In this document: one piece after another, positions 38,161 through 56,783 of the stretch
Numbering within the stretch: position 1 is the stretch's first letter
Layout: each line of letters starts with the position of its first letter
Assembly (NCBI GenBank): GCA_040755755.1
Contig: JBFLZW010000042.1
Span: forward strand, 1-64,000
From: a bacterium
GTDB taxonomy: Bacteria > SZUA-182 > DTGQ01
DNA: 64,000 nucleotides
Reading direction: 5' to 3'
Translations under genes and position numbers: made by a program
Notes under the pieces: model-generated
What the model was told of the DNA's origin: nothing
Databases searched by the model: none
The model's input: the letters and a program-made list of their open reading frames with translations, nothing else

Positions 38161-39916
38161 AATTGTTCTCCTGTGGCAGAGGTACCTCCAGTATTACCCG
38201 GGTACCCTGTCCCACTTCGCTTTCTACATATATCGTCCCTTCGTTGGCTTCAATAATTCTTTTAGTTATGGGCAATCCCAAACCTGTTCCCTTTTCACCT
38301 TTTCCATCTTTTCCACCTTTTTTGGTGGTGAAAAACGGCTTAAAGATAAGGGGAAAATCCTCAGGGAGTATACCTCCACCGGTGTCCTCAATCACGAGCC
38401 GGGTCAACCCATCGGGATGCTGGGGGTGGTGAGTTTGAATCGATACCGATATGCGCAACTCTCCTCCCTTCGGCATAGCCTGAATGGCATTTAAAAAGAT
38501 ATTCAGTAAAACCTGCTTAAACTGATGGGGATCAATATCGATCCTTGACTCAGGATCCACATTCAATCTCACTTGAATCCCTTGTTTATCTATCTGGAAT
38601 TCAAGGAACTTGAAGCAGCTGCCAATGATCTCTTCCATCTTTTCACGGTTAAGAAGGCTTTTGCGGGGAATATCAGGACGGGCAAAGTCCATAAAATTCC
38701 TGATGATTTTCCGGCATCGAATACATTCCTCCTCGCAGATTTTCAGCGCCTTATAATTCATGTTGGTTTCAGTAATCTTCTCCAGCAATACCTGGGTGTT
38801 TATGAGAATAATACCGATAGGATTATTGATTTCATGGGCTACACAGGTAGCGAGCTCCCCTATCGTGGCCAATAGCTCGGCATGGCGTATTTGCTCCTCC
38901 AGGTTCCGCATTTCAGTGATATCCCGGAGAACCTCGATGACCTGTTCCACCTGACCCTCTTTATTCTTGATAGGTGCGTAAATAATATCCATGAAAATAT
39001 TCTCATTATTCCCCTTGGGGAAGGAATTTTCTTTCCTGTTCTTTTTCCCGGTAGTAAAGACGTTTTCGACCGTCTCCCTCCGGAAGGGAGATGCAATTTC
39101 CGAATACGGCCTGCCGATCAGGTCCTCCGGGGCATATCCTAGGGTGGTGGCCTGCTTGCGGTTGATGGCTGCAATCTTTTTGCCATGATCGACGACAATT
39201 ATCCCGTCATCCATACCATCGAAGATGGATTCGAGCTTGCGCTTGTTTTCCAGATTGGTTTCCTCCAGTTTTTTTCGCTCGTTGATATTGGTGATGCTGC
39301 CGATAATACTGGCTTTCCCCTCCATCTCCCAGTTGCGGCAACTGATAACTACATGGTTTTGAGCCCCCTCCGGCGTGTGCAGGGTGGTTTCCCTGGTCGC
39401 GATTTCCCCGCAAGAGCAGCATAACTTGCAGGTGCCTTCACCCATGCAGATGAGATCAAGGCACCGTCGTCCGATAACCTCATTGTGAGTCAGGCCGAGA
39501 AGATTCAGGGCGAAGGTGTTGATATCGGCAATCTCCAGTCCCTCGGTCACCCGGAACATCCCGGCAGGAACAATTTCGAAAAGAGTCCGGTATTTTTTTT
39601 CATTTTTCACCAGTTGTTCTGTTTTGCTTTCAATCAGCTTCTCCAGGTTTTTGTTGTAGTCTGTAATGATTTTCTCCCGGTCCCGGTATATCGTGCCGGT
39701 GGCGCCAAGAGTAGGGTAGAGGGCGGCGGCAGCGATTCCGAAGGCAAAATCAATTATCATCTGGAACTGGGGGATACTATGTATGGTTCCCAACAGCAGA
39801 AGCACCGTACACCACAGAAGTGCCCATCGGGCTGAAAGGTTGGATCTGGGATCGTAGGTAAAATTATCTTTGAAGGATTTTATGAATTCCTTCATCAGCT
39901 CTTTGTTTTTGGACAT
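38138..39916 (-). CDS. Membrane-anchored PAS sensor histidine kinase with Cys cluster
   Basis: This 592-residue kinase has two N-terminal hydrophobic helices (about 29-70), a coiled coil, PAS 1 (about 105-225), PAS 2 (about 226-350), HisKA with phospho-acceptor in VAHEINNPIG, and a HATPase (LNIFLNAIQAMPKGG, DTGGGI, GTGLGLPI). PAS 1 contains the clustered cysteines CLDLICMGEGTCKLCCSCGE, which may bind metal, an Fe-S cluster or redox-active thiols (inference). It is of the NtrB class and pairs with the downstream NtrC-type regulator. A promoter with a perfect -10 lies at 39995-40023. Confidence 0.9.
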   Translation of the reverse strand: MSKNKELMKEFIKSFKDNFTYDPRSNLSARWALLWCTVLLLLGTIHSIPQFQMIIDFAFGIAAAALYPTLGATGTIYRDREKIITDYNKNLEKLIESKTEQLVKNEKKYRTLFEIVPAGMFRVTEGLEIADINTFALNLLGLTHNEVIGRRCLDLICMGEGTCKLCCSCGEIATRETTLHTPEGAQNHVVISCRNWEMEGKASIIGSITNINERKKLEETNLENKRKLESIFDGMDDGIIVVDHGKKIAAINRKQATTLGYAPEDLIGRPYSEIASPFRRETVENVFTTGKKNRKENSFPKGNNENIFMDIIYAPIKNKEGQVEQVIEVLRDITEMRNLEEQIRHAELLATIGELATCVAHEINNPIGIILINTQVLLEKITETNMNYKALKICEEECIRCRKIIRNFMDFARPDIPRKSLLNREKMEEIIGSCFKFLEFQIDKQGIQVRLNVDPESRIDIDPHQFKQVLLNIFLNAIQAMPKGGELRISVSIQTHHPQHPDGLTRLVIEDTGGGILPEDFPLIFKPFFTTKKGGKDGKGEKGTGLGLPITKRIIEANEGTIYVESEVGQGTRVILEVPLPQENNYEEDSRC

Positions 39917-40023: not shown

Positions 40024-40161
40024 TTCAATTTTACCTTTCCTTCAAACGAGAGATATGCTATTATTTTCATTATAACCCAACTACTCCTGGAAAAAACGGT
40101 AAGGTGAATTGTAAAGCTGTTGAGCTGTACGAACAGGAGCATAGGCCATAAGGATGGAGCA

Positions 40162-41124
40162 ATGAGGAAAGAGAGCATTTTGACTGTGGGGAGTATTTTG
40201 TGCCTGTGGCTGCTTCTTTTTTGTCTTCCCGCAGCGGAAGCGGCGGTTGCTGAATATCTGAAAGAGAGTATCAGTCCTGTCCTGGTCATCAATCAATTCA
40301 ATAATCAACTCCCCCTGGGACAGCCTGTTGATGTATATGTTGACGGGCCGGGCAACCTTTATGTGGTTGACTCCTCAAGCCGGGCTGTTCTTATTTTCGA
40401 TAACCACTATCAACCCGTGAGCAGGCTGGATATGGGGAACGGTTTGCAGTCACCGAATGCGGTAGCGGTTGGTCAGAAGGGGCATATCTATGTGGCCGAT
40501 GCGGAGCAGGGGATCCTGGTTTTTAACTCGATCGGCAAGATAATCAAAAAGATAGACCTGAATAAACTGGCCGAAGGCAGGGTTCGCTGTGCACAGGATA
40601 TGGTTATCGATCACCAGACGGATTGCCTTTATCTGGCTACCGGAACCGAGCAGGGAGTGCTGGTTATAGACCCCGAGGGCAAGCTCAGGGCAGCTATTAC
40701 TCCAAAGGAATCGCGCAAGGAGGGGATGCCTCCGACGCCGGTAGCCGTAAACCGGGTCACTCTGGATTCCCGCGGAAGAATTTATTGTGTCAGTGAAGAG
40801 ATGGGCAGAATCTATGTTTATGAGAATCCGGAGACTTTCCTGTTTCAGTTCGGACAGAAGGGAGGATCTTTCGGCAAATTAAGCCGTCCGGTGGGAATTG
40901 CGGCTGACTGCGCACAGGAATTAATCTTTGTCATAGACTATATGCGGCATACTTTATCCATGTATAATTTAAACGGCGTGTTCCTCCAGGAATATGGAGG
41001 CCAGGGGGAGAAAGTCGGCTGGTTCAGTCATCCCGACCATATCTGCCTGGACAGGGAAAATCGGCTGATCGTGGCAGACTCGTTCAATCACCGTCTGCAG
41101 GTCCTGGCCATTCATTCACCATAG
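40162..41124 (+). CDS. Secreted NHL-repeat beta-propeller protein
   Basis: This protein of about 320 residues has a signal peptide (ILTVGSILCLWLLLFCLPAAEA) followed by about six NHL repeats, for example PVDVYVDGPGNLYVVDSSSRAV, seen in parts, HIYVADAEQGILVF and NRLIVADSFNHRLQVL. The fold would be a six-bladed propeller in the periplasm or outside the cell. ATG 40162 is chosen, with GGAG just upstream; the frame extends to 40120 without a signal. It opens the cytochrome locus. NHL propellers often accompany secreted cytochromes and may help their export or assembly. Confidence 0.85.
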   Translation: MRKESILTVGSILCLWLLLFCLPAAEAAVAEYLKESISPVLVINQFNNQLPLGQPVDVYVDGPGNLYVVDSSSRAVLIFDNHYQPVSRLDMGNGLQSPNAVAVGQKGHIYVADAEQGILVFNSIGKIIKKIDLNKLAEGRVRCAQDMVIDHQTDCLYLATGTEQGVLVIDPEGKLRAAITPKESRKEGMPPTPVAVNRVTLDSRGRIYCVSEEMGRIYVYENPETFLFQFGQKGGSFGKLSRPVGIAADCAQELIFVIDYMRHTLSMYNLNGVFLQEYGGQGEKVGWFSHPDHICLDRENRLIVADSFNHRLQVLAIHSP

Positions 41125-41264: not shown

Positions 41265-42551
41265 TTGGAAAGGGGGCGCTTAAACGTGAAAAGAAGAGAA
41301 TTTTTCCGGAATCTCTGTGTAGTGGCACTTATCAGCGGGTTGGTTTTTATCCAGAGTCTATCCAGTGAGGCAGGGGTAAAGGGGCCCTGTTCCGAGTGTC
41401 ATACCATGCACAACAGCCAGGATGGAGCGGTGGTTAATGAGGTTAACGGCCAGGAATTGGAGGCTCAGTCGTTTTTGATCAAGGGAGCCAATCTGAATCT
41501 GGGAAATCCCTGCCTTGGCTGCCATAAAAGAAATGCGAGCGGCCAATATTTTAAGGATCCGGCGAAGGAGAATCCGGAGACGAAGGAAAATACCGATGCC
41601 CCTCAGGTCAATGTCAATCTCGAATCGACCGATGGTAAAATGTCGGCTGCGGGGACCTATTACTATGTAGCGAAAGACAAAACCGAGAGGGATGGGAAAT
41701 CCTGCCGCAAGGGGCATAATGTCGCGGGCATGGAGGACGATAACAGCGGCAATGAAGATGAGCTGCTGGGAGTCATTCCTCCCGGCGGAACGGAAGATTG
41801 CATCAGGAGCGATGTCAGTAATCAGTTGACCTGCGCGGGAGCGTCCGGCTGTCACGGGAACAGGAATATATCGGATCCGCTGGCTTCGATCAAGGGCGGG
41901 CATCACAGTCCGGCCACTAATAGCTATGAGGGCCGGTATCGGGATGGAAACACGGTAGCCAGCAGTTATCGCATGCTCTATCATGTCAGGGGAAGAGTTG
42001 CCAGTAACTGGGAATATGGGGACCATGCTGATAAATTCCTCGAGCAGATCGATCTGAGTGGCGAAGATGTAAATATTTATCAGGGAACTGATAAGGGGGT
42101 CCAGGGTGATAAAAGAGACCCCGGCCCGGACCGCTCGATTAACGGCTTTTGTGGTGAGTGTCATGGATGTGCCAGCGATACGACCGGAAATGGTTTTCAC
42201 AGCCTTGAAGGTTTGAAGGGATCCAGCCAAAGCGAAATGAGCTCTCCCTGGAAACGGCATCCGACCGATATCGTCATGAAGCAAAATACTGCCTATTGGA
42301 ACTATCCGGGTGTCGATGGCAAGGACTATTCACAGGAAGTGCCGGTTGGTTTTGCCAAGATCACTAAGACCGGCTCGGTGAATGAACTCCAGAAATCAGA
42401 ACGGGTTGTCCTCTGCGTATCCTGTCATAGGGCACACGGATCACAGTATGATGATTCTCTGCGATGGGACTACAATGAGATGCGAACCACTTCAACCAAG
42501 GGGGATGGCTGTTTCCGGTGTCATACGGATAAGTATAACAGGCAGGATTAA
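41265..42551 (+). CDS. Secreted multiheme c-type cytochrome
   Basis: This protein of about 428 residues has a signal peptide (RNLCVVALISGLVFIQSLSSEAG) and five CXXCH heme-binding motifs: CSECH, CLGCH, CGECH, CVSCH and CFRCH. Two degenerate sites also occur: CRKGH (41703-41717), where the second Cys is Gly, and a CX5CH (41832-41855). The start is TTG 41265 behind AGGAG, or GTG 41286 behind AAGGGGG; the latter gives a cleaner signal peptide. The N-terminal CHTMHNSQDGA matches CHTLHFSQDGA of the giant cytochrome downstream, so the two are related. It probably carries electrons in the periplasm or outside the cell. Confidence 0.88.
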   Translation: MERGRLNVKRREFFRNLCVVALISGLVFIQSLSSEAGVKGPCSECHTMHNSQDGAVVNEVNGQELEAQSFLIKGANLNLGNPCLGCHKRNASGQYFKDPAKENPETKENTDAPQVNVNLESTDGKMSAAGTYYYVAKDKTERDGKSCRKGHNVAGMEDDNSGNEDELLGVIPPGGTEDCIRSDVSNQLTCAGASGCHGNRNISDPLASIKGGHHSPATNSYEGRYRDGNTVASSYRMLYHVRGRVASNWEYGDHADKFLEQIDLSGEDVNIYQGTDKGVQGDKRDPGPDRSINGFCGECHGCASDTTGNGFHSLEGLKGSSQSEMSSPWKRHPTDIVMKQNTAYWNYPGVDGKDYSQEVPVGFAKITKTGSVNELQKSERVVLCVSCHRAHGSQYDDSLRWDYNEMRTTSTKGDGCFRCHTDKYNRQD

Positions 42552-42615
42552 TACATTTCCTTCGGCAGGATTTTTCGGATACTATTTTATACTTAGTAGT
42601 GCTCAAGAAGTAGAG

Positions 42616-43620
42616 ATGGATGAGAAATTTGTACCTAAGAAGGCAGTATGTAAGAGTATTATTTACATTCTTATGTGCTGTGTGGGATTTCCCTCCTTTG
42701 CTGTCGCCGGGGGGGGGGCAGGTATCAGGACGGAGTGGCTTTTCGATGTGCGGGGAATCCAGAAAGGTCACTCCTTCAATCATCCTCTGGGAATATTCCT
42801 GGATAACTCTCAAAAGAAGATTTATATTGCAGATACAGATAACCGGGAGGTGGCCGTATTCTCCCTTTCGGGAGAACCATTAGGCATACTCCGGACTGAG
42901 CGTCCGCTTTCCCGCCCGCTGGGGGTGTTGAGCGATGCGGAGGGGAAAATTTATATCAGCTATCGGGATAAAGAATGCCTGGAGATTTTCGATGCCGGGG
43001 GAAAATTTCTCTCCTCCCTTCCCTCCCCTGAATTGCTGAAGGATCATGGATTTTCAGCAGGAAAGTTCGTGCTGGGTCCGGGAGGCAGGATATATGCAGT
43101 CAATCGAAAAACCGGCGAAATCTGGGTGTTTGAGCGGAATGGATCTTTAGCCTTCCGCTTTGGCGGCAGAGGATCGGGGAAAGGCAAATTTCAGCTTATC
43201 ACCGACATCTTCTTTCGGGAAGGAAAGATTTACCTGAGCGATTCTCAGGGGATTCCCGTGCAGGTATTCAGTCTGGAAGGCAAGTATCTCGGCTCCTTCG
43301 GAAGGCATGGTCAGCACGAGGAAGACTTTTCTTTTCCCCAGAGCATTTGTGTAGACCGACATCAGAGGATATGGGTAGTGGATGCTTTCCGCCACCGGAT
43401 CAAGGTATATGATCAGGAGGGTAACTATTTATCCGGCTTTGGCACTTATGGAACGGAAGCGGGGAAATTTTGTTTTCCCGTCGATCTTGACTTTGATGAT
43501 CAGGACAGGATATATATATTAGAAAAAAGCAGCAATAGATTTCAGGTATTTCAGATTGAGGGAAAACAGGGATTAGAGACAGGGCAAGGAGAGAAGACGA
43601 AACATGTAGATAAAAGATAA
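42616..43620 (+). CDS. Secreted NHL-repeat beta-propeller protein
   Basis: This 334-residue protein has a signal peptide (SIIYILMCCVGFPSFAVAGG) and about six NHL-type blades, such as PLGIFLDNSQKKIYIADTDN, GRIYAVNRKTGEIWVF and QRIWVVDAFRHRIKVYDQEG. ATG 42616 is chosen since upstream in-frame codons from 42382 overlap the cytochrome gene and carry no signal. It is paralogous in design to the propeller at 40162 and lies between the two cytochromes. Confidence 0.83.
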   Translation: MDEKFVPKKAVCKSIIYILMCCVGFPSFAVAGGGAGIRTEWLFDVRGIQKGHSFNHPLGIFLDNSQKKIYIADTDNREVAVFSLSGEPLGILRTERPLSRPLGVLSDAEGKIYISYRDKECLEIFDAGGKFLSSLPSPELLKDHGFSAGKFVLGPGGRIYAVNRKTGEIWVFERNGSLAFRFGGRGSGKGKFQLITDIFFREGKIYLSDSQGIPVQVFSLEGKYLGSFGRHGQHEEDFSFPQSICVDRHQRIWVVDAFRHRIKVYDQEGNYLSGFGTYGTEAGKFCFPVDLDFDDQDRIYILEKSSNRFQVFQIEGKQGLETGQGEKTKHVDKR

Positions 43621-43731: not shown

Positions 43732-46700
43732 GTGAAGAAAGCGGTCTCTATCATTGTATTCTGCGGTATTTGTATAATTTTCCCTCTTTCTCTTGCTCGC
43801 GCAGGGAACTACCATATCAAAGGCCAGAACCTGAACTGTTATGACTGTCATACTCTCCATTTCAGTCAGGATGGCGCTACTCCACAGGTTCCTGACGGAG
43901 CGCGGCCCTGGGGAGAAGGACCGCAGGATTACCTTTTAAAAAATACCACTTCCGAAATGTGTCTCATGTGCCACGATGGTTATAACCTCGAGGCACCGAA
44001 TGTCATGTATTCCACCTCCCGCGATTACCAAAGCTCAGCCGGTTATCTCGGTGAAGAGAAAAACGCCGACAGCGGAGTCTTCGGCCACACCCTGAACAGT
44101 CCCAACCCTCCCCCCGGGTATCAGGGAACATGGAACAGGACCCTGTCCTGTACTTCCTGTCACGATCCTCATGGCAATTCATATTATCGGAATCTTCGGC
44201 CAAAACCTTTAGCTGATTCTGCAAATTCTCCAGTGACGTATTTTATCGGCACGTCGGTGAGTGGAAATGAAGACAAGGGTATTCAGATCGCGGTTGATAG
44301 TGCCGATGCTTCCTCCTCACCCTATGATTTGACAAAAATCATTTACCGGCAGGAAGGAGAGGCAGGAGAGGATACGGTGGGGCTTTCCTTCTGGTGTGCC
44401 GGATGCCATCCGGCTTTCAATCAGCGGGGTGATGTCCAGGGGACAAGAACACTCCATCCGACCTATGGTATCACCATGTCCCAGGCCAAGCCCTCCATCA
44501 GCCAGTGGTGGTCAGCTACTGCCTCCGGGCCCCCGACCCGGCCTCCGACCGTAACGTCATCATCAGATACGGACCGGGGATCGGACCGCCCCTTTTGCGG
44601 GAGCTGTCATAAGGCTCATGGATCAACCCACCGCTACGGGCTGCTGTGGGAAAACCCTGCCAGTCCCGATCGAGAGGGGGGGCAGTATATGCGGGATACC
44701 TGTCAGGCCTGCCACCATATCGGGAACGGGCACTATGAATCCAGTCCGCACGCTGATCCAAATTTCGGGGTCTATCGGGTACCGGAATTCGGCAGGGGTG
44801 AGTGCGAGCAATGCCACCGGCAGCATGGCACCGCGAACAACCCTCAGGGCAATGCTCATAACCTGTTCGCCGAGAGCAATAAATCTTTTTGCCTGACTCC
44901 CGGATGTCACTGGGAAGTCCCGGCATCCTATCCGCTTTCGGAAGAAAAACTGCCGCAGGGGGCCAAAGCCCGGATCAGCCTGACGGTAGATGCCGGCAAT
45001 GATCGGGCCTTTCTCGGCTACTTTGAGCTGAATTCTGAAATCAACAATACAGCGGTACGGCTCGGCGGCCTCCAATACCGGGGTAGGTGGCCGGGAGCTT
45101 TGGCCTACAATAACGAGCAATATTCTCCTCACGGCAGGGAAAACGGGGCCATGCCCAACGAGGGTTCCTGCATGAACTGCCACAGCCCTCATGGTACCGA
45201 GAGCCGGTTTGATATGCTCCAGTTGCCCTATGAAGGAACCTCAGGATCAGGCATTGCAGGGGCGGACAATTATGAGCTGTGCCTGAGCTGCCATAGTGAG
45301 AATGGGCCGAGCGGCATGAGGCCGGAAACGAAAAGAATCGCTGACTACTACAGCCAGGATGACCTGTACTCAGGCCATAAGATCAAAAGTGACGGCGGTT
45401 TCGCCAGACCAGGGGATAAACTGGCCTGCTCAAACTGCCATAACCCGCATGGTTCAATGGGCAATAACCAAAGCGGACCAAACCTCCATCTTCTTTCCGA
45501 CGAGCGGCCGGGCTGGCGGGAGCTCGACACCCTGAATGATCCGAATTCTTCCCGCAGGTTCTGCTTTGGCTGCCATGTTCCCTCGAATAAGCCTGAAGTC
45601 AAGTCCGTCGTGGAAGGGATTACCATGAAGCCGATTCCCGACTTCGCTGAGCACCGGGATGGAGAGGGATCGACAGAGAGTTGTCACAGTTGTCATGGCA
45701 GCAGCTACGATGCCCCTGATTCGGAAAACGTTCATCATCTCTCACCAGGCAGTTGTGATAAATGCCATGCGGATCAGGGAGCCTGGCAGGCCAAAAAGTA
45801 CAGCGGCCCCCATGCCTATCATACGGATAAATACGCCTTTGCCTGTGAGGTTTGCCATGCACGAATGAACCATACAGCCGGCAAGGCCATTCATGGCAAT
45901 GGCAAAGCGCCCGGATCGAATTGCCAATATGCGCAAGTTTGCTTCCACGACGGGTCTGATTCAATCGAGTGGAAAAATCAGATTCTCCACCAAAAAACCT
46001 ACCGATACCGATCGTTGTATCACAATCCATATCTCGACAATGCCGGGATTACGCCAGGTTATGATGCCTCAACCTATGACCTGCCCGATACCTGCAAGGA
46101 GGATCCCATTGATCCCAATCGGGTTTTCTGGACCGATCAGAGCACCTTCAGCGGGCATAATTCGTGCAGTACTGTCTGGTGCCACAGTAATGCCAATCCG
46201 CTCAGTCTGCCGAACCATCCGCGGGAGAACAGCTATCAGGCTAACCCGTCTTTCGCCCTGACCTGGGACGATCACAACGCAAATCGGTGCAATAATTGTC
46301 ATGGCTTTATTGATCTCGATCAGCCAGCTGACACCTGGCAGCTTTCCTCGTACCATCGAAAGCATATCGTAGTCACTACCCCGAATAAAGACACAACCGG
46401 CATGGCCAAGATCCTGTGCACCAAGTGTCATGCCGGAACCTGCACGGATAACGAAAACACCATCCGGGAAGATATCGGGTATGCGAACCACGTCAATGGG
46501 AAAAAAGACATAATTTTTGCCGATCCCAATGGAAAATATGCCGCTGATCGCACCTGTAGTGTAAATTGCCACAGCCGTGACGGGAGGCTCCTTTCCGTTT
46601 CCTGGGAAGAGCAGAATCCCGAATCGGTCTGCGGCACCTGTCACGATGTTTTCGGTCCCGGCAGGACGATTTCCAAGGACGGGCATGCTGTTCACCTGAT

Positions 46701-49700
46701 TTCCGACCGGGGACCCGGTCCCCATTCACCGGAGCAGTGCAATGACTGTCATACCTCGCACGACGATCCGGCCCATTGCAACGGGGTGCCAGACTTCAAG
46801 GATGGCCAGACCCTGGCTCAGACCTCGGTGTGCGATAAGTGCCATAGCCCTGGAGGCGACTATGATGGAGTGAACGATCCTTCCATCGGGGCCAAAGCCA
46901 ATTGGAAATCCGGCGGTGTATATGTCCAGGCTCCTGACGGGAAACTGGAGCTTAGGGGGGGCAGGGAGAAATGGTGTGTCGGCTGCCATGATAAGGAGCC
47001 TGCCGCCAGCCGCAGCGACGGTTCCGGCGTGAGTGCACCGAACGTGGCCGGAGATGAAACCGCTCTTACTCAATACGGGAGAGGGTATGGCTATTTCGTA
47101 ACCGGTCATGGTCTGGAAGAAGGCAAGTCCTATCCGGGCTCGGAGGAAAGAGGTGCCGGGGCTTCCTGCACGGATTGTCATGATGCCCGCCTTGGCCATA
47201 TCGACCATGCTCACCGGACATATTCAGCCAGCAGGAACAATTACCAGGCCGGCTACCGCCTTAAAGCCTCTGCCCTGGCGAATGATCCGGCCCGGCCGAT
47301 GGATATCCCCAGAACAGCGAGCACCGGCCCGAACAATAATCCTCAGCAATACTGGCAGGACTTTGCTCTCTGCTTCCAGTGCCACGACCGCTTTGCACTT
47401 TTGGGGAATGGAGTGAGCTCTGATCAAAGATACCTGAAAGATCCTCTGCAAACGAATTTTTATAACAGCAGCTATCTCTATGAAAACAGCGATAAGAGTG
47501 TCAATCTGCACCTTTCCCACTTGTCCGGAAGAGGCGGCGGGGGCAACAATCCCGATTGGACATCCAGTTGGAACAGCACGGGGGATTCTGCCATGAGCTG
47601 TCCTGCCTGCCATAATGTCCACGGCTCCCCAACTCCCCGGATGATGCGTCATGGTGAGCTTATCAGCACTCCGGGTACTTCGGATAAGGTTCCGGGCCTG
47701 AATTTCCGGTATCAGCCATCGGGTTCGACTCTGCCCGGAAGCACGGGAGGGGAGATTTTCAGCCAGTTCAGCGCGGGAAGAGGTACAATTTCACAGAACA
47801 GGATTTGTGAGACCTGCCATCCAGCCTATGTGAAATATACCCGGACACCGTATATCAACCCTGACAATATCAATCCTCAAATCGAGAGTGTTGTGGCCTG
47901 GAATGGTCCCACCGGCGGCAGGGGAATCGACGATGGAGATCAATTGGTTATTACCTTTACCACGGCCACCAATGGCCCGCAAGTGATCAAGCTGCCGGAA
48001 GATGTGAAATTCGGCATCAAGATTTATGGAGACAGTAACTGCACCCTGGAAAAAGCATGGAGCACCCCCGCCAATATTGAATGGTCGTCAGCAGGCGGCC
48101 GTTCCAATGATACTTTGCGCCTGATCCTGCGGAAGGAGGGTACGGACATTGCCATTGGCGATTATCTGAGAGTGCTTCCGGGAAATCTCGAGGGAATTGT
48201 CGGCGGCATTAGCCGTCAGATTGACTCGTCGAGGGAGATGACGGGGACATTCGATTGTGCCCTGGTCAGGGTCTGTGCAGAAAATCAATCTCAGAGTGAG
48301 GAGCCGGGAATTCAGGAGGGAGATCAGGTAACTGTTTACTTTTCAGGGTCCATCGATGTCGGCAGTGGAGGCACTTCGCTGACTGCGGCCAATATTGATC
48401 AGGCCCTGCGGCTGAGCAGCGGCCATACCTGGGGGCAGGTAAAGGAGATCAGGTGGAATGCTCCTGCCAATGATACTCTGACCATAATCCTTGGCAATGA
48501 ACAGCCTGCGGCCACAATTGCAGTTGGAGACAGTATCACCCTGGGGGATATCATCCGCGATCAATCTGCAAATATCTTAAGCGGCTCAGCCATACTTGAA
48601 GGATCGTTTGATTCTTATCCCCTGCTCAGCCCGCTGGCTGTATACAGCTCTAATATTCCGGGTCCGCCCTGGGGTAATACTATGAAATCGATCGATGGAG
48701 ACCCCAATACCCTCTGGTTCCTTGGCCCTTCGGCGGAAGGAAAGATCAGTTACGATCTGGGAACAATGTACCGAGTTTCCAGGGTTTGGATTTCCAGCGG
48801 TGGCAGTGGAGGAAATGCTTCGGCAAAAGTCTGGGTTACCGCCGGTCCGGAGTATGACGAAACAGCTCCGACTCTTGACTCCTGGCAGATACCGGTAACT
48901 CAAGGGTGGCATTCCAGTCCCCAATTCGATGCCGTAGGCCGGTATTTACGGATCGAGGCCAGGAAAATCGGGAACGGTCCTCTCGGTGAGTTGTTTCATG
49001 AAGTGGCATTCCAGGGAACGACCGCGCTTCCCCATGTCAATCCCCGAATCCTTGGTGTAGAGGCTCGGAACAATGCCTCAGGCGGTGCGGGAGTTGATGA
49101 CGGGGATCAGGTGGTTATTACCTTCAATGTATCCACCAACGGCCCTGAGGTGATCAGGGGGCCGGCTGACGTGGAATCGGTCCTGAGTGTGTATGGAGAT
49201 GCCAACCACAAGGTTGAAACCCGCAAGAGCTGGGGTACCCCCGGCAGTATCGAGTGGTCCGCTGCGGGCGGGCAGGCCAATGATACCCTCACCATAATCC
49301 TGAAAAAGGAAGGGGCTACCCTCGCTGCCGGAGATCATGTTGAGGTATCCTCCCTCAAGCTGAAGGCACGGGCAGGAGGGTTTGAACTTCCGATTATCTC
49401 ATCCCGGGTGATTACCGGAACCTTCGACTGCTCTCTGGCCAGGGCCGTTGCCGGAAATCAGTCACAGAGCCCGGAGCCGGGAATCCAGGAGGGCGATCAG
49501 GTGATCATCTCCTTTGCCGGGAAGACCTTTGGCAATGCGATAACCGCAGAGACGATCAACACGGCCTTGCAGGTAAATAACGGTCATTCCTGGGGTCAGG
49601 TCAAGGCCATCGAATGGAACGCCCCTGCCAATGATACCCTGAAGATAACCTTTGGCTCCGGCGCTCCGGTTCCCACAATCGCTGTTGGCGATACTATTAC

Positions 49701-51387
49701 CCTGGGCGATATTATCTGCGATCAATCCCAGCACCCGATCATAGGGTCGGTTACTCTCACAGGATCATTTGATCCGCCGGTGGCCACCTGGCGGACACCA
49801 GAGGCCATCCACAGCTTCAGCCCGACCTGGGGCGGGAATACCAATGCCGCAAGATCGATCGACAGCGATCCGAACACCATGTGGACTGTTCTGGACGGGA
49901 CAGCGCGTATTACCTATGATCTGAAAACGCAGCATCAGGTCTCCAGCATCCGGTTCTTCAGCACTAGTGGTGGGGTAAAAGTTTCGGTCAAGACCTGGGT
50001 CACCGATGAGCCGGTTTATGATCCCAACAATCCAACAACCGGCCCCTTCGAGATATCAGGAGTTTCAGGGTGGGCTGCAAGTCCGTATCAATTTTATTCC
50101 AAAGGCCGCTATCTCACCCTGGAGGTCAAAAAGCTGACTCCCGGACCTCTCAGCAGTTACATCGCCGAAGTGCAATACCAGGATGGTGAGATTCCGTTAC
50201 CTGATATCAGTCCGCAGATTCTCAAGGCTGAAGCCTTGAACAGCATCTCCGGCGGCACGGGAGTTGATGACGGGGACCAGATGGTCATTACCTTCAATGT
50301 ATCCACCAACGGCCCTGAGGTGATCAGGGGGCCGGCTGACGTGGAATCGGTCCTGAGTGTGTATGGAGATGCCAACCACAAGGTTGAAACCCGCAAGAGC
50401 TGGGGTACCCCCGGCAGTATCGAGTGGTCCGCTGCGGGCGGGCAGGCCAATGATACCCTCACCATAATCCTGAAAAAGGAAGGGGCTACCCTCGCTGCCG
50501 GAGATCATGTTGAGGTATCCTCCCTCAAGCTGAAGGCACGGGCAGGAGGGTTTGAACTTCCGATTATCTCATCCCGGGTGATTACCGGAACCTTCGACTG
50601 CTCTCTGGCCAGGGCCGTTGCCGGAAATCAGTCACAGAGCCCGGAGCCGGGAATCCAGGAGGGCGATCAGGTGATCATCTCCTTTGCCGGGAAGACCTTT
50701 GGCAATGCGATAACCGCAGAGACGATCAACACGGCCTTGCAGGTAAATAACGGTCATTCCTGGGGTCAGGTCAAGGCCATCGAATGGAACGCCCCTGCCA
50801 ATGATACCCTGAAGATAACCTTTGGCTCCGGCGCTCCGGTTCCCACAATCGCTGTTGGCGATACTATTACCCTGGGCGATATTATCTGCGATCAATCCCA
50901 GCACCCGATCATAGGGTCGGTTACTCTCACAGGATCATTTGATCCGCCGGTGGCCACCTGGCGGACACCAGAGGCCATCCACAGCTTCAGCCCGACCTGG
51001 GGCGGGAATACCAATGCCGCAAGATCAATCGACAGCGATCCGAATACCCCCTGGTCCGTCCTGGACGGGACAGCACGAATTACCTATGATCTTGAACCGG
51101 AATATCAGACACAATATCAGGTTTCCCGCATTCGGCTCTTCAGCCGTGACAGCAGGGGGAAAGCTTCGGTAAAGGTCTGGGTTACCCCTGACCCGGTATA
51201 CGATCCGGAAGCTCCAACATATGGCCCTTATGAGATATCACAGGTTGCGGGGTGGGCCATAAGCCCTGAGTTTGACGCCAGAGGCCGGTATCTCACCCTG
51301 GATGTCAGGAAGCTGCTTCCCGGGCCTCTTGGCAACTGGATTGGCGAAATACAATTTTTCGGTATGGCTCCTCCTGCTTCTCCCTGA
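43732..51387 (+). CDS. Giant multiheme cytochrome with repeated adhesin-like domains
   Basis: This secreted protein of about 2551 residues starts at GTG 43732, which gives the clean signal VKKAVSIIVFCGICIIFPLSLARA; an ATG at 43702 is the alternative. Between 43839 and 47823 lie 24 CXXCH heme sites, many followed by PHG or HxHG as in doubled-CXXCH proteins. Three more candidates have CX4CH (44890, 46165) or CX3CH (46555) spacing. From about 47870 to the end come three copies of a module of about 390 residues: two Ig-like GDQxxITF domains plus a discoidin (F5/8 C)-like domain. Copies 2 and 3 share a 740-bp perfect DNA repeat. It is probably a surface electron-transfer protein that also binds a polymer, cell or mineral surface. 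Confidence 0.88.
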   Translation: MKKAVSIIVFCGICIIFPLSLARAGNYHIKGQNLNCYDCHTLHFSQDGATPQVPDGARPWGEGPQDYLLKNTTSEMCLMCHDGYNLEAPNVMYSTSRDYQSSAGYLGEEKNADSGVFGHTLNSPNPPPGYQGTWNRTLSCTSCHDPHGNSYYRNLRPKPLADSANSPVTYFIGTSVSGNEDKGIQIAVDSADASSSPYDLTKIIYRQEGEAGEDTVGLSFWCAGCHPAFNQRGDVQGTRTLHPTYGITMSQAKPSISQWWSATASGPPTRPPTVTSSSDTDRGSDRPFCGSCHKAHGSTHRYGLLWENPASPDREGGQYMRDTCQACHHIGNGHYESSPHADPNFGVYRVPEFGRGECEQCHRQHGTANNPQGNAHNLFAESNKSFCLTPGCHWEVPASYPLSEEKLPQGAKARISLTVDAGNDRAFLGYFELNSEINNTAVRLGGLQYRGRWPGALAYNNEQYSPHGRENGAMPNEGSCMNCHSPHGTESRFDMLQLPYEGTSGSGIAGADNYELCLSCHSENGPSGMRPETKRIADYYSQDDLYSGHKIKSDGGFARPGDKLACSNCHNPHGSMGNNQSGPNLHLLSDERPGWRELDTLNDPNSSRRFCFGCHVPSNKPEVKSVVEGITMKPIPDFAEHRDGEGSTESCHSCHGSSYDAPDSENVHHLSPGSCDKCHADQGAWQAKKYSGPHAYHTDKYAFACEVCHARMNHTAGKAIHGNGKAPGSNCQYAQVCFHDGSDSIEWKNQILHQKTYRYRSLYHNPYLDNAGITPGYDASTYDLPDTCKEDPIDPNRVFWTDQSTFSGHNSCSTVWCHSNANPLSLPNHPRENSYQANPSFALTWDDHNANRCNNCHGFIDLDQPADTWQLSSYHRKHIVVTTPNKDTTGMAKILCTKCHAGTCTDNENTIREDIGYANHVNGKKDIIFADPNGKYAADRTCSVNCHSRDGRLLSVSWEEQNPESVCGTCHDVFGPGRTISKDGHAVHLISDRGPGPHSPEQCNDCHTSHDDPAHCNGVPDFKDGQTLAQTSVCDKCHSPGGDYDGVNDPSIGAKANWKSGGVYVQAPDGKLELRGGREKWCVGCHDKEPAASRSDGSGVSAPNVAGDETALTQYGRGYGYFVTGHGLEEGKSYPGSEERGAGASCTDCHDARLGHIDHAHRTYSASRNNYQAGYRLKASALANDPARPMDIPRTASTGPNNNPQQYWQDFALCFQCHDRFALLGNGVSSDQRYLKDPLQTNFYNSSYLYENSDKSVNLHLSHLSGRGGGGNNPDWTSSWNSTGDSAMSCPACHNVHGSPTPRMMRHGELISTPGTSDKVPGLNFRYQPSGSTLPGSTGGEIFSQFSAGRGTISQNRICETCHPAYVKYTRTPYINPDNINPQIESVVAWNGPTGGRGIDDGDQLVITFTTATNGPQVIKLPEDVKFGIKIYGDSNCTLEKAWSTPANIEWSSAGGRSNDTLRLILRKEGTDIAIGDYLRVLPGNLEGIVGGISRQIDSSREMTGTFDCALVRVCAENQSQSEEPGIQEGDQVTVYFSGSIDVGSGGTSLTAANIDQALRLSSGHTWGQVKEIRWNAPANDTLTIILGNEQPAATIAVGDSITLGDIIRDQSANILSGSAILEGSFDSYPLLSPLAVYSSNIPGPPWGNTMKSIDGDPNTLWFLGPSAEGKISYDLGTMYRVSRVWISSGGSGGNASAKVWVTAGPEYDETAPTLDSWQIPVTQGWHSSPQFDAVGRYLRIEARKIGNGPLGELFHEVAFQGTTALPHVNPRILGVEARNNASGGAGVDDGDQVVITFNVSTNGPEVIRGPADVESVLSVYGDANHKVETRKSWGTPGSIEWSAAGGQANDTLTIILKKEGATLAAGDHVEVSSLKLKARAGGFELPIISSRVITGTFDCSLARAVAGNQSQSPEPGIQEGDQVIISFAGKTFGNAITAETINTALQVNNGHSWGQVKAIEWNAPANDTLKITFGSGAPVPTIAVGDTITLGDIICDQSQHPIIGSVTLTGSFDPPVATWRTPEAIHSFSPTWGGNTNAARSIDSDPNTMWTVLDGTARITYDLKTQHQVSSIRFFSTSGGVKVSVKTWVTDEPVYDPNNPTTGPFEISGVSGWAASPYQFYSKGRYLTLEVKKLTPGPLSSYIAEVQYQDGEIPLPDISPQILKAEALNSISGGTGVDDGDQMVITFNVSTNGPEVIRGPADVESVLSVYGDANHKVETRKSWGTPGSIEWSAAGGQANDTLTIILKKEGATLAAGDHVEVSSLKLKARAGGFELPIISSRVITGTFDCSLARAVAGNQSQSPEPGIQEGDQVIISFAGKTFGNAITAETINTALQVNNGHSWGQVKAIEWNAPANDTLKITFGSGAPVPTIAVGDTITLGDIICDQSQHPIIGSVTLTGSFDPPVATWRTPEAIHSFSPTWGGNTNAARSIDSDPNTPWSVLDGTARITYDLEPEYQTQYQVSRIRLFSRDSRGKASVKVWVTPDPVYDPEAPTYGPYEISQVAGWAISPEFDARGRYLTLDVRKLLPGPLGNWIGEIQFFGMAPPASP
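49117..49856 (+). repeat. 740-bp direct repeat, copy 1
   Basis: This segment is identical base for base to 50287-51026 in my line-by-line comparison (offset 1170 bp). The first mismatches lie at 49116/50286 and 49857/51027. It encodes two Ig-like domains and the start of a discoidin-like domain of the giant cytochrome. Flanking sequence is still homologous but diverged. Confidence 0.93.
50287..51026 (+). repeat. 740-bp direct repeat, copy 2
   Basis: This is the second copy of the perfect repeat, in frame, 390 codons after copy 1. Total identity inside diverged flanks suggests recent gene conversion or unequal crossing-over rather than a fresh tandem duplication of the whole module. Short-read assemblies could collapse or misplace it. 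Confidence 0.93.
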
Positions 51388-51526
51388 AAAAAACAAAAGA
51401 CAGAGGGAAGTCCAGAGAAAAGCAGAGGAGTGGGAGTGAGTGAAAACCGGTATAAGGTTAAAGAGAAAAATATCAGATTATGGCAGGTTATTCTCTCCGG
51501 TTAACGGGCGAGCAGGTGGAATGGAT

Positions 51527-54500
51527 ATGAGCAGGAATCTTCTGGTAACTATCATAAGTATGGTGATCGTGAGCGGAATAGTATTGGCAGATCAGGGAAT
51601 TGGTCTTGCCAAAATCATGGTGGATTATCAAAAGGGCGGTGTGGAGCTTTCCTGGACTGAGCCTACTCAGCGAATCACCGAGGAGCGGCTGTTGTCTTCA
51701 GAAATCGCCGGCTATAATATCTTCCGGAGTCTGATCGGTGAGAATGACTATCGGAAAATCAACCAGGAATTGATCAGGCAGACCAGATATCTTGATCGGC
51801 ACATCGAGTGGGGGAAGTGCTATTCCTATGCCCTGACCACAGTTGATTACCGGGGACTCGAAAGTCCCCGTTCCCCAATTGTGCAGGCAGTTGCACCGCT
51901 TGCTCCTCCGGCGAAGGTCGAGGCATTCGGCCAGAAGCGAAGCGTCAGGCTGAGCTGGGAGAAGAGTAATAATCCACAGATCCGGGGCTATAATATCTAC
52001 CGGTCGGAGATATCCGGGCAGAATTACCAGGTGATCGCCTCTGTGCTCGATACAGATGATGAATACCTCGATCAGAAGGTAGAGGTTGGGAAAAACTATT
52101 ACTATCTGCTGAGTACAGTCGATCTTTCCTGGCAGGAGAGTGCTTTTTCCCCGGAGGTTGGAGCTACACCCCTGGTGATCAGCCAGGAAGAGCTGTCCAC
52201 TCTGGAAAAGATCGATGGTTTCAGGGCTGACATCGATCATGAAGGGGAGAGCCTGGCGGTCATTCTCCACTGGGAGCCGGTCACTCTGGAAAATCTGGCT
52301 GGTTATAGCGTTTACCGCCGGTTAAACACGGACATGGGAAAGGGGCCGGCCTCATATCAGCGGCTCAATAAAGAGCTTATCCGGGTGACGAATTTCCGTG
52401 ACGAAGAGGTCGTCCCTCAGCAAAGCTATTTCTACCTTATCGCCGCTGTGGATAAAGATAACAATGAGGCCCGGTTTCCCAGGGAAATCTCAATAACCGT
52501 AGCTGAGCTTGCCATCAATTCTCTGACTGACGATTCCTCCGGGCGTCCATTGAAAGGGGGAAAGCTGCTGACCATTACCCTGACCGGCACGCCGGGAAAG
52601 AAAGCCTCTGCCTCTCTTGAGGGGCTGGCTCAGGATATCCCGTTGCAGGAAACCGATCAGGAAGGTGTTTACTATGGCCAGTATAGTATACCGGAAGGTA
52701 TCAGCAAGGCAAATATCGCCTTGACCGGCACCATCGAGGACGATCGCGGGGAGAAAATCGGCTTTGTGTCTTCCGGCACGGTTACGATCGATAACACTCC
52801 CCCGGCCGGCATTCTTGCAGCGACGGCGGAATTGGTCAGCGATGCTGTTCACCTGAGCTGGGAGCTTCCTGATGGAAGTGACGACGTTGTGGCAGTAAGG
52901 GTTTTTCGCTCCCTGGCGGACAATGAGGGGAATGATAGCTTTGGAAAGGCGGAGGATTGTGCCCGGAAGCGGCCCGGAGAGGCGGTCAGCGGAGAAATCA
53001 GCCCCCGCATCCGGTCGTTTGATGACCGCTCGTTTCGCCCTCATCAGGGATATTATTATTACCTGATCACCTATGATCAGGCAGGGAACGAATCCTGGTC
53101 GCAAGATTGTCTTGCGGTTATCACCCCGGTAGACTCCACTCCCCCGAAAATACATTCGGTCGAAGAGCTCAGCGCACCCGGCACCAAACGACTTGGGGAT
53201 GTTATTCGGATCCAGATGCTTGGCGAACCCCGGGCAGAGGGCCGATTTTCCATCGGTCCACGGATCCGGCAGCCGTTTCAGGAAGTCAGTCCGGGAAAAT
53301 ATCAGGGAGAGTATACTGTCCAGGCGGGTGATGATCTGGAAAATGAACCGGTCATGGCAGAGTTGACCGATGCTTCGGAAAACCGGAGCACGATGACCGG
53401 AAACTTCAAAATTTCGATCGATACCAGAACAGAAGCTGGCAAACCGCCTCAAATCGCGGTCGTAGAGCATAATGCTTTTTCCGTGGCAGGCATGGATCCT
53501 CTGGTGGCTGGAGACTCGTTCCGTATTTCGGTCCAGGGTGATCCAGGCTGCACTGCCTATGTGGACATAGGAGCACTGGTTACCCGGTCCGGTCCGGAGG
53601 CTGATGTTGAGCTCAGTTGGGAACACGATAACAGCTCATCCGCACGAGGGGAAGGTTTTGTAACTTCGTACCGGATTTACAGCCAACCGGAATTTTCATC
53701 TTCACTCATCTTTCTGCCGGGCTCGCAGCCATCCTCAGCCCGGCTGGTAAAAGAGCTGCCTCCGGGGGCCACCTGCTGCCGGATCGAGGATTATCATGGA
53801 GGATATCTATCCGTTACCGCCAGGAAAAATACGGGTGATGAGCAGATAATTCTTACCCCGAAAATGCATATTCCCTTAACGGAGGTACAGCCCGGCCTGT
53901 ACGAAGGCACATACAAAATCCAGCCGGGAGACCGTGTCCGGGAGGGAAAACTGACTGCCTATCTTGTCAATCGGCAGGGAGAAGTTTCTCTTCCCCATGA
54001 AGCCGAAGACGCGGTTAGCATCGATACCTCGGTGGCCGTAACCGTAACTCCACGGGAAAAGTGCCTGAAGGCTGACGGCAAATCCAAAACCGAGGTTCGG
54101 ATTGAAGTCAGCAATGCCAGACAGGTTGGTGTTGCAGATCGGGAAATTGTCATCGAATTATTCACTACTGACGAATACACCGGAATTGCCGGTGTCGGCC
54201 GGTTTGATGAGGATAAATACGGGTATGTGGATAATTCCTACCAACTGGTCACCGATCCTGGAGGGATGGCCGATATCCCCTATGTTTCGGGGCTGGCAGC
54301 CAAGACCGTGATCATTCGGGCCAAAGATGTGGCTACCGGCTGTGTGGGCCTGAGCTATATCACTTCCTACATCGAAGGTCTGATCAATATTCAGCTTATC
54401 GATCCGCCTGCCCGTCAGCGCCTGCGCGCTCTTCAGAGCGGGCCAAGTCTGACCGTATGGGCGGATAATGAATGGCTGACAGCGGATGGCGGGCACAGCA

Positions 54501-55063
54501 GGACGATCGTTCATGCCAGGGTTTTGGATGCGGAGGGAAATCCTCTGGGAGGGCACCGGCTGAGCTTCGCCATTACTTCGGGAGAGGGCCGGATCGAGGA
54601 GATACAGCCCATCACCACCGGCTCCGGTGAAGCCCTGGCCAGATATTTTGCCGGTAAGCATGTCGGCACGGTGGAAATCACGGCGGTTGATACCGTCACC
54701 GGAATGAGCAGGAAGGTTTATATTATCCTGAAAAGTGATGCACCGGCCAAAATAGTGTTCGAGGGAACTCCGTTGTCAATTTACGCCGATGGGGCCAGCA
54801 CCTCAGACCTGACCATTCAGGTCGCGGATATGAATGACAATCCCAGCAGGGGTATCCCATTGGAAGTTGATATTATCCAGGGAAAGGGGAGATTGATCGC
54901 TCTGGATAAAGAACTGGTTACCGATTTCCAGGGCGAATGCCGGTTAAAATATCTGGCCGGAACCAAACCGGAAACTGTAACTATTCGGGCAAGGGCTCTA
55001 TCGGCAGTCCCTGACCCGCAAACCATGCAAAAAGCCAGGATTGCAGAAAAAGGGATGAATTGA
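51527..55063 (+). CDS. Secreted fibronectin III / invasin Ig-like protein
   Basis: This protein of about 1178 residues has a signal peptide (LLVTIISMVIVSGIVLADQG). Fibronectin III-like repeats follow (GVELSWTEP with GYNIFRS, SVRLSWEKS with GYNIYRS, VILHWEPV with GYSVYRR, VHLSWELP). A long middle region and three C-terminal Big_1/invasin-like Ig domains complete it, for example SRTIVHARVLDAEGNPLGGH and TSDLTIQVADMNDNPSRGIP. ATG 51527 follows AGGTGG by 7 bp; GTG 51440 is an alternative. It may be a surface scaffold. The following barrel gene starts at its stop, so the two are probably coupled. Confidence 0.8.
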   Translation: MSRNLLVTIISMVIVSGIVLADQGIGLAKIMVDYQKGGVELSWTEPTQRITEERLLSSEIAGYNIFRSLIGENDYRKINQELIRQTRYLDRHIEWGKCYSYALTTVDYRGLESPRSPIVQAVAPLAPPAKVEAFGQKRSVRLSWEKSNNPQIRGYNIYRSEISGQNYQVIASVLDTDDEYLDQKVEVGKNYYYLLSTVDLSWQESAFSPEVGATPLVISQEELSTLEKIDGFRADIDHEGESLAVILHWEPVTLENLAGYSVYRRLNTDMGKGPASYQRLNKELIRVTNFRDEEVVPQQSYFYLIAAVDKDNNEARFPREISITVAELAINSLTDDSSGRPLKGGKLLTITLTGTPGKKASASLEGLAQDIPLQETDQEGVYYGQYSIPEGISKANIALTGTIEDDRGEKIGFVSSGTVTIDNTPPAGILAATAELVSDAVHLSWELPDGSDDVVAVRVFRSLADNEGNDSFGKAEDCARKRPGEAVSGEISPRIRSFDDRSFRPHQGYYYYLITYDQAGNESWSQDCLAVITPVDSTPPKIHSVEELSAPGTKRLGDVIRIQMLGEPRAEGRFSIGPRIRQPFQEVSPGKYQGEYTVQAGDDLENEPVMAELTDASENRSTMTGNFKISIDTRTEAGKPPQIAVVEHNAFSVAGMDPLVAGDSFRISVQGDPGCTAYVDIGALVTRSGPEADVELSWEHDNSSSARGEGFVTSYRIYSQPEFSSSLIFLPGSQPSSARLVKELPPGATCCRIEDYHGGYLSVTARKNTGDEQIILTPKMHIPLTEVQPGLYEGTYKIQPGDRVREGKLTAYLVNRQGEVSLPHEAEDAVSIDTSVAVTVTPREKCLKADGKSKTEVRIEVSNARQVGVADREIVIELFTTDEYTGIAGVGRFDEDKYGYVDNSYQLVTDPGGMADIPYVSGLAAKTVIIRAKDVATGCVGLSYITSYIEGLINIQLIDPPARQRLRALQSGPSLTVWADNEWLTADGGHSRTIVHARVLDAEGNPLGGHRLSFAITSGEGRIEEIQPITTGSGEALARYFAGKHVGTVEITAVDTVTGMSRKVYIILKSDAPAKIVFEGTPLSIYADGASTSDLTIQVADMNDNPSRGIPLEVDIIQGKGRLIALDKELVTDFQGECRLKYLAGTKPETVTIRARALSAVPDPQTMQKARIAEKGMN

Positions 55064-55083
55064 GTTGCTTATCGGGGAGATGT

Positions 55084-56763
55084 GTGACTAGAAGAGGACA
55101 GGTATTACTCGCGGTACTCATCATCGTTTCACTTTCTTTCGCCAGTTCCGGCTATAGCCAGCAGATCAGGCTGGGGGCAGACTACCTTTTCGAGAAAGTG
55201 CAGGAACCCGATAACAAGGATGAATATAATTTTATTCAGACCTATGATCTCATTCTGGAAAAGCCCCTGCGTCCGCTGTATGATCTCAAGTTTAAACTTC
55301 AATTGCGATCCGAGTCGGCAGACCGGGATACCGCTGAGGCGGAAAATAAAAACCGGGGCTGGGAGAGTAAGTATCTGCCATCCTTTTCCCTCCATCTGGG
55401 AAACGATGTCATGGGGCTGGATTCAGGGTTCAGTAAAGACAGTATTCATGAGCAGGATATGGATTATGATCTGACCAGGAAACACGCGACTTTTGTCTGG
55501 AGCCCTTTTCGCCTGCCGAGGTTCACTGTCCAATACCAGAAAGAGGATAGAGATCTGAGTGACGAAGAAGGCAGTGGCATGCAAAAAGGAGTGACCCTCC
55601 GAGAAGATTATGAATTGGTTCTGGGAATCTTCACCCTGAGCCATAGTTACGCAGTGGAGAGAGAAAGGGTTATAGAAGAGGGTGACGATGCAGGCAGTCT
55701 GCACAAGGAAGATGACAGCGGGCCGGATTACCATAACTATGATCTCCATAACCGGGGCCAGATAGGGTATCAGTTCTCTGCTTTCGATTCCCGGCTGCAA
55801 CTGAATTCCAATTATGAATTGTCTCATCATGATAAAAAGGATGAGGAGGCAAACAACAGCTACCGCCTGCTGGAGCAGAAGGCGAATTTCCGCTTTACCG
55901 GCCTGCCGGGCAAGAATACAGCCCTGCACTATAACCTGGTTTTGGGAGAGACCCGGAAATGGTCGGAGCAGGACCGGGAAAGAACCCTGGGGAACAATTT
56001 GAGGATCGATGTTCTCCCCCATGAGCATCTGCGAAGCATGCTGGAGGTCAGCCATGATAACCGCTGGGAAGCGAAAGAGGATGAGCGCAACAGCGAATTG
56101 ACCTACGGGCTGCGGATCGAACCGGAAATTCCGGGTTTATTGCTGGACCCCAATGTACCCATGCCGCCTTTGAAGACATCGCTGCTTTTGAGCAGCTCCT
56201 TAACCAAGGATAACGGAAGACTTGAATACCGGACAAATTCGGCCCTGCTGAAAGGCTCAACGGAAGTTTATCGGGGAGTCGAGATCCGTACCGATTTTGA
56301 GGTGATCAATACGAAAGATTTTCAGGATCAGGATAAAAAATGGGAAGAAAATATTAAAATTGACACCAGCTTCGCCCTGAGGGAGGATCTTAAGTATTAT
56401 CTTCGGAACGAAAACAGGTGGATCCGTCAGGACCAGGGGGAGGAATTATCTTCTGTCCGCACCTTTGAAGGTGAAGTCTGGCATATGATTACCTACCGTC
56501 CGGCGGATCAGCTTTTTCTGACACTTGATAATAATATCGAATACGGCGATATTGATGAGAGATTGTACGGCTTGCGGATCGGATGGCTTCCCGTGCCCAA
56601 GGTGCGCCTCGAAGCACGGTATCAGACTGCCGAGACAGAAGAAGACGAGTACTTTTCGAGCGAGATGAATATCAATATGACTAAGACGTTAAAGTTCAGG
56701 ATTAAATATACCTATCCGTCAGACGATCAGGTAATCTCTTTCCGATTTACCCTGAAAACTTAA
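55084..56763 (+). CDS. Outer-membrane beta-barrel protein (porin-like)
   Basis: This protein of about 559 residues has a signal peptide (RRGQVLLAVLIIVSLSFASSGYSQ) and then alternating amphipathic strands rich in aromatics and charged turns through to a final strand, ISFRFTLKT. That pattern fits a large outer-membrane barrel of roughly 20 or more strands. The start is GTG 55084 behind GGGG, or TTG 55060 overlapping the previous stop. In porin-cytochrome conduits a barrel holds a multiheme cytochrome that crosses the outer membrane; the neighbouring cytochromes suggest that role here. Homology to MtrB/PioB-type barrels is not evident by eye. Confidence 0.72.
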   Translation: MTRRGQVLLAVLIIVSLSFASSGYSQQIRLGADYLFEKVQEPDNKDEYNFIQTYDLILEKPLRPLYDLKFKLQLRSESADRDTAEAENKNRGWESKYLPSFSLHLGNDVMGLDSGFSKDSIHEQDMDYDLTRKHATFVWSPFRLPRFTVQYQKEDRDLSDEEGSGMQKGVTLREDYELVLGIFTLSHSYAVERERVIEEGDDAGSLHKEDDSGPDYHNYDLHNRGQIGYQFSAFDSRLQLNSNYELSHHDKKDEEANNSYRLLEQKANFRFTGLPGKNTALHYNLVLGETRKWSEQDRERTLGNNLRIDVLPHEHLRSMLEVSHDNRWEAKEDERNSELTYGLRIEPEIPGLLLDPNVPMPPLKTSLLLSSSLTKDNGRLEYRTNSALLKGSTEVYRGVEIRTDFEVINTKDFQDQDKKWEENIKIDTSFALREDLKYYLRNENRWIRQDQGEELSSVRTFEGEVWHMITYRPADQLFLTLDNNIEYGDIDERLYGLRIGWLPVPKVRLEARYQTAETEEDEYFSSEMNINMTKTLKFRIKYTYPSDDQVISFRFTLKT

Positions 56764-56783
56764 TACTAAGGAGGGCATTGTCA

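Follow-up and report, generated by a model that had tools for sequence, protein, structure and literature searches.

The window analysed here is a stretch of 64,000 nucleotides of a bacterial contig (JBFLZW010000042.1, positions 1 to 64,000), in which a gene for a giant multiheme cytochrome (43732..51387, + strand) is surrounded by genes for further cytochromes, propellers and envelope proteins. A sigma-54 response regulator (36582-38027) and a PAS histidine kinase (38138-39916) are encoded upstream in the divergent orientation (36582..39916, − strand). They are followed on the + strand by an NHL beta-propeller protein conserved in relatives (40120..41124), an OmcS-like cytochrome (41265..42551) with five CXXCH motifs and a conserved CX5CH in place of heme 3, whose family profile (A5) matched OmcS 6EF8 with an E value of 4.2e-22, and a second NHL beta-propeller (42613..43620), the start of which is a predicted one within an open frame running from 42382. 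The CX5CH of the 41265 cytochrome (CAGASGCH, residue 190; window 41832-41855) is unusual as a heme motif, and its spacing is kept in several homologues.

The genes downstream of the giant, all on the + strand, encode an adhesin-like protein with fn3, Big_1 and Invasin_D3 matches (51440..55063), an outer-membrane beta-barrel with about 24 long predicted strands (55060..56763), a CsgG/GNA1162/LpoB-like lipoprotein (56778..57377), a second CsgG-like protein, assigned by homology to the adjoining genes (57390..57968), a GNA1162-like lipoprotein (57971..58603), a five-heme cytochrome with paired CXXCH motifs (58653..59462), a HAMP-domain membrane protein (59512..60081) and a SurA/PpiC-type prolyl isomerase lipoprotein (PPIase; 60062..61450) with a putative OscH-like role. 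The model of the barrel was of medium confidence (pLDDT 62) and its matches were to outer-membrane proteins, including MtrB; on this model, it could be any outer-membrane protein. Three genes lie between the PPIase gene and the next cytochrome gene (window 61568-64000, L041 2-805), the third with a P-loop-like GMGKTALL sequence; they are missing at the corresponding place in a genome of the same genus (G001, L149) and gave no PADLOC match. Rfam and tRNA scans found nothing.

The open reading frame of the giant (43702-51387) encodes 2561 aa when counted from the ATG at 43702, and residue numbers are given on this count throughout. However, the GTG at 43732 (VKKAVSIIVFCGICIIFPLSLARA) is the likelier start, because the orthologue from G001 (L033) retains this GTG and its context, and not the upstream ATG. 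The resulting protein of ~2551 aa begins with a signal peptide that ends in ...PLSLARA-GNYH and has no lipobox cysteine. There are 24 CXXCH motifs, together with two CX4CH (residues 397 and 822) and one CX3CH (residue 952), versus a mean of 0.15 and a maximum of 3 CXXCH in 2000 shuffles of the heme region; the other five frames of this region contain 0-1. It is reasonable to suppose that the giant holds about 27 hemes, because the irregular motifs recur in the orthologues and GSu_C4xC__C2xCH (Pfam/NCBIfam) matched around two of them, below its cut-off. A sequence-only reading of this DNA had described one frame with a signal peptide, 24 CXXCH and three CX3-4 motifs, and the frame, the motif counts, the shuffles and the other frames bear it out.

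The same reading had assigned the heme part and a repeat part to a single gene. The genome of the same genus (G001; L033 4051-10854 and L053, HOT.CON.50) shares this architecture at 66% identity as far as the end of its contig, which lies within a third tail unit, whereas in a second genus (G003) the hemes, one tail unit and a genuine stop are found on one contig (L034) and the N-terminal part on another (L035). As the heme-to-tail junction is contiguous in both the congener and the second genus, cytochrome and tail form a single protein in three species or more, and the single-gene claim stands. The alternative is that two genes were merged by misassembly in a metagenome bin, and the tail does contain an exact 740-nt repeat (49117..49856 and 50287-51026, + strand), a known cause of misassembly, common to units 2 and 3. 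Against this, the junction recurs in L033, an independent assembly at the identity given above, and in L034, with its genuine stop after one unit. An artefact is therefore extremely improbable and, to judge from these contigs, refuted for the fusion; it is only the number of tail units that stays provisional, because of the repeat, and the fusion is independent of that number.

The main point, absent from the sequence-only reading, is the OmcS-type identity of the N-terminus. Domain 1 (43792..44730, + strand; residues ~31-343), recognised by profile matches to OmcS and by its histidine columns, has six CXXCH in the same order as OmcS (hemes at residues 46, 87, 150, 232, 299 and 334). With a profile of domains 1-2 from five giant or fused proteins, the sole clear match in the PDB was OmcS 6EF8 (E=1.8e-8), inside domain 1; when stand-alone homologues were included, the domain 1 profile matched OmcS 6EF8 best by far (E=5.3e-25), with OmcE second (2.9e-5), and query residues 38-317 were colinear with OmcS 1-340. 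The alignments show OmcS histidines outside the heme motifs (H2, H16 and one each within GHN, CHDPHG, RHP and CHRAH), and these have counterparts in domain 1 at residues 38, 53, 129, 157, 252 and 306, and all six are present in each of the five giant or fused proteins and in nearly all the stand-alone homologues. Residue 53 corresponds to His16 of OmcS, presumably the residue that ligates the heme of the adjacent subunit. In OmcS, one heme ligand is known to come from the adjoining molecule (PMC6584659).

The domain 2 profile yielded weak, motif-driven PDB matches that did not include OmcS, the domain 3 profile yielded none, and neither did the whole giant when used as a single sequence. Because the profiles of domains 2 and 3 fail to match OmcS, the similarity of domain 1 is not a generic effect of CXXCH motifs. 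Both domain 1 and the 41265 cytochrome are colinear with OmcS (GSU2504, PDB 6EF8/6NEF) and share its heme order, and relatives of OmcS are widespread (PMC10954620). However, OmcS is a stand-alone, polymerising subunit of 407 residues, whereas in the giant an OmcS-type domain opens a chain of 2,551 residues, with about 21 more hemes and a putative adhesive tail. The domain is thus embedded and is not a stand-alone protein of ~400 residues; by its sequence, the giant is a protein with an OmcS-family domain rather than an OmcS.

Domain 2 (44731..45750, + strand; residues ~344-683) is a seven-heme cytochrome domain that includes the CX4CH at residue 397 and is a separate gene in other lineages, and domain 3 (45751..47856, + strand; residues ~684-1385) has 14 heme motifs (12 CXXCH, one CX4CH and one CX3CH). 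Homologues of domain 1 in six genomes (G017, G179, G180, G318, G328 and G203) are separate genes of 353-442 aa, mostly adjoining a domain 2-related gene for 7-9 hemes. In two further genomes (G002 and G004; L036 and L055), fused domains 1-2 run straight into a homologue of the downstream fn3/Big_1 adhesin, with 34-36% identity to the protein of the window over ~1,085 aa. In contrast, G000, G001 and G003 have a further heme block and the Ig-Ig-F5/8C part between domains 1-2 and the adhesin, which is a separate gene. In the tree, domain 1 of the giant and the fused domains grouped together (100/99), and the 41265-type cytochromes were found across a split supported at 92/90.

The heme block from residue ~970 is paralogous to cytochromes of 796-1302 aa encoded in the same genome. 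Three of these (C10, C11 and C6) have Ig (Big_5) and golvesin_C domains, together with clear or weak F5/8C domains. The simplest account of the origin of the giant would be a fusion or insertion involving an OmcS-type gene and such a paralogue. Paralogous cytochromes were also observed at L038, L039, L042 and L044, with golvesin_C within or after the heme part and, in some, also Big_5 and F5/8C; multiheme proteins with carbohydrate-type modules are a habit of this genome.

The tail (residues 1386-2561; 1,176 residues) consists of three units of ~390 aa, each formed by an Ig-like A, an Ig-like B and an F5/8C part. Unit 1 is encoded at 47857..49026, unit 2 at 49027..50196 and unit 3 at 50197..51384, all on the + strand. 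Units 2 and 3 are 90% identical overall and unit 1 is 64% identical to them. Unit 3 of G001 likewise begins identical to unit 2, and in both sequences this pair seems to reflect recent duplication or gene conversion. Pfam matches to F5_F8_type_C (5.6e-6; 26.9 bits versus a cut-off of 28.2) and F5_F8_type_C_2 (8.2e-6) were slightly below the curated cut-offs, and the F5/8C of the orthologue L033 scored 29.5 bits, over the cut-off. AlphaFold2 yielded a beta-rich model of the tail (pLDDT 80.6, pTM 0.51), and with Foldseek the F5/8C part matched CBM32 modules (probability 1.00; for single CBM32 chains, TM-score 0.56-0.69 by the length of the target), in agreement with the profiles. Both Ig-like parts are rich in beta structure and had no individual matches. 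The tail of about 1200 residues with Ig-like and discoidin-like repeats that had been read from the sequence holds up as a beta-rich tail with CBM32-like F5/8C domains. A mineral or a partner cell, as suggested in that reading, may be bound; the fold points first to carbohydrate as the putative ligand. F5/8C domains can, however, also bind protein or lipid rather than sugar.

The composite Ig-Ig-F5/8C unit was found on a cytochrome only in this family (3 of the 386 genomes searched), and Ig-B alone recurs in large heme-less proteins or frames of other lineages. A general family of cytochromes with this tail module was thus not found; a search for further genes combining CXXCH clusters with the module returned the present family as regards the composite unit, and heme-less frames as regards Ig-B. 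An open frame of 13,481 codons (L048-L050, G005:C32) has several Ig-B-like repeats, and the parts of it that were read lack heme motifs.

The tail might alternatively be a pro-region, a chaperone or anti-polymerisation segment removed after secretion and not an adhesin. There is a precedent in OmcZ, the precursor of which has, after its multiheme domain, tandem C-terminal Ig domains that are absent from the filament (PMC9473688). However, OmcZ belongs to an unrelated cytochrome family with a different heme fold and has no F5/8C, three units of carbohydrate type, multiplied by recent duplication, suit avidity better than a pro-peptide, and the scanned part of the locus has no recognisable protease gene. 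We consider a pro-region quite improbable.

The electron-transfer locus continues beyond the window for ~15 kb (L041 844-16092, corresponding to 64844-80092 of contig C42), with genes for proteins of 25, 16, 8, 14, 6, 3 and 28 hemes, a cytochrome b561 and propellers; the 25-heme protein (64844-66868 of the contig) has 674 aa and 25 CXXCH. Well over 100 hemes are encoded in the window and its continuation. About 40 kb of this locus are conserved: the barrel, lipoprotein, HAMP and PPIase genes are syntenic in three further genomes, as are the 25- and 16-heme genes where the contigs reach, and the gene order is kept in G001 and G003 as far as the contigs extend, and in G002 with one inverted block. 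In other lineages, OmcS-like genes, propellers, CsgG-like lipoproteins and genes for 16-42 hemes also cluster. The extracellular electron-transfer context hinted at in the sequence-only reading is supported by the conserved locus, with its outer-membrane barrel and numerous multiheme genes. A separate array in G004 (L151 3256-12178; G004:C175) contains six OmcS-like genes of 5-7 hemes in a row with two NHL propellers.

Linkage of barrel and cytochrome genes, seen wherever contigs reach, would also suit a porin-cytochrome conduit, in which the barrel encoded at 55060-56763 would have the giant as its outer partner, which would not polymerise but pass electrons from periplasmic cytochromes to an acceptor, like MtrC, OmcB or OetB-type proteins, the OmcS-type domain being mere ancestry. 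Several periplasmic-type cytochromes accompany the barrel in the locus, and Oet and OmcKL are established analogues (PMC10553843). However, cytochromes of the MtrC/OmcB type are lipoproteins and the giant has no lipoprotein signal; CsgG-like lipoproteins, propellers and a PPIase are closer to a secretion or assembly system than to a simple conduit, and the equivalent of His16 is fully conserved. A conduit is a real possibility, if not a likely one.

The locus resembles the osc nanowire-assembly operon of Geobacter sulfurreducens in its gene types. As in an osc-type locus, genes for an OmcS-like hexaheme protein, a beta-propeller and a prolyl isomerase occur together. In the primary study of osc, OscH is reportedly a prolyl isomerase, OscD a beta-propeller and OscEFG channel-like proteins. 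The two also share a ~26-heme cytochrome and an adjoining sigma-54 regulator and kinase, and the latter pair adjoins omcS (PMC10599522). By its heme count and size, the 25-heme protein of 674 aa fits the description of an OscI-like cytochrome of ~26 hemes and ~70 kDa and is a candidate counterpart of GSU2495, and the barrel and CsgG-like lipoproteins are candidate counterparts of OscEFG. Unlike osc, the locus of the window has the giant fusion, the fn3/Big_1 adhesin and three CsgG-like lipoproteins, and its cytochromes are far more numerous. The osc operon has been proposed to encode proteins for the folding, secretion and morphology of OmcS (PMC13194489), and includes an eight-gene block, with a ~70-kDa 26-heme member, after an OmcS-like hexaheme gene, GSU2501 (PMC12977616).

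A further alternative is that domains 1-2 act as OscC, an OmcS-like osc protein, and help the OmcS-like neighbour to begin or direct its filaments at the outer membrane, with a tail that binds peptidoglycan or matrix and thereby fixes the machine. In several lineages, homologues of domain 1 are located upstream of barrel and lipoprotein genes, comparable to GSU2501 before its eight-gene block (PMC12977616), and the split described above separates domain 1 from the 41265 cytochrome. However, what is known of the role of OscC gives no support for an adhesive tail, and about 27 hemes exceed the need of a scaffold. We regard such an assembly component as unlikely.

The giant is probably a secreted electron conductor of the OmcS family, with an adhesive tail of carbohydrate-binding type, in a large osc-like locus for extracellular electron transfer; the above alternatives are not all exclusive of this general reading. 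Once the giant had been exported by Sec and loaded with hemes, it would be carried outside the cell by the PPIase, the barrel and the CsgG-like lipoproteins, where its hemes would form a long conducting chain, fed by the 16-25-heme cytochromes of the locus, from which electrons would presumably flow to the giant. By the exchange of a histidine with a neighbouring heme, which holds OmcS filaments together, domain 1 may be joined to its OmcS-like partner (41265-42551) or to a second giant, and the tail and the fn3/Big_1 protein would fasten this end to a polysaccharide matrix or to the surface of a partner. Against the conductor reading, the giant lacks both a lipoprotein signal and any known surface anchor, a tail of this size may prevent packing in an OmcS-like filament, and OscC is listed as periplasmic (PMC13194489). 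A more specific version, which we consider doubtful, is that of a concatenated nanowire protein capping a heteropolymer, in which gene fusion replaces separate subunits, His53 is swapped with heme 5 of an OmcS-like filament subunit, and the CBM32/Ig tail anchors the end of the wire to polysaccharide or a partner cell. The cytochrome wires known in 2025 were homopolymeric only (PMC11936953).

Cytochromes with fn3 or Ig parts have been described in other systems. The Oet proteins of syntrophic sulfate reducers (OetABI and OetF) are also large multiheme cytochromes, but the domains of OetF are fibronectin domains rather than Ig-F5/8C units, and no fusion with OmcS has been described for it (PMC10553843). 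The MtoA-like cytochromes of Dethiobacter alkaliphilus combine many hemes with a C-terminal Ig tail (PMC10376724), but belong to the MtoA-like family and not to that of OmcS. The open-access literature searched gave no account of a protein that joins an OmcS-type domain to additional heme domains and F5/8C/Ig units, and it is this combination that appears to be new. The view that multiheme cytochromes with a large adhesive tail are rare holds for the composite three-domain unit, but not for such proteins in general, as this genome has several paralogues with Ig, F5/8C or golvesin modules and fn3 or Ig parts are present in published cytochromes.

A second cluster of this genome (L043 and L056, contig C54) encodes a PPIase, 26-heme, 21-heme and 8-heme proteins and an fn3/Big_1 protein, and resembles the 26h/16h/PPIase operon of seep-SRB (PMC12246660). 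G002 has the cluster too (L058) and G004 a part of it (L059), with a frame of 2593 aa in the latter that is cut at the region edge and has 49 CXXCH. A sulfate-reducing syntrophy was not supported, as a DsrA search of the genome gave no match above the cut-off.

The locus bears on how cytochrome wires attach to cells and targets, and the physiological relevance of OmcS filaments is itself disputed (PMC11077965). Because an OmcS-type domain is here covalently tied to further hemes and binding modules, while in relatives these domains continue into an invasin-like adhesin, our findings suggest that conduction and attachment are coupled functions. The giant is a natural construct for testing how wires are anchored, and its function may be to attach such a biological wire to a surface or a second cell.
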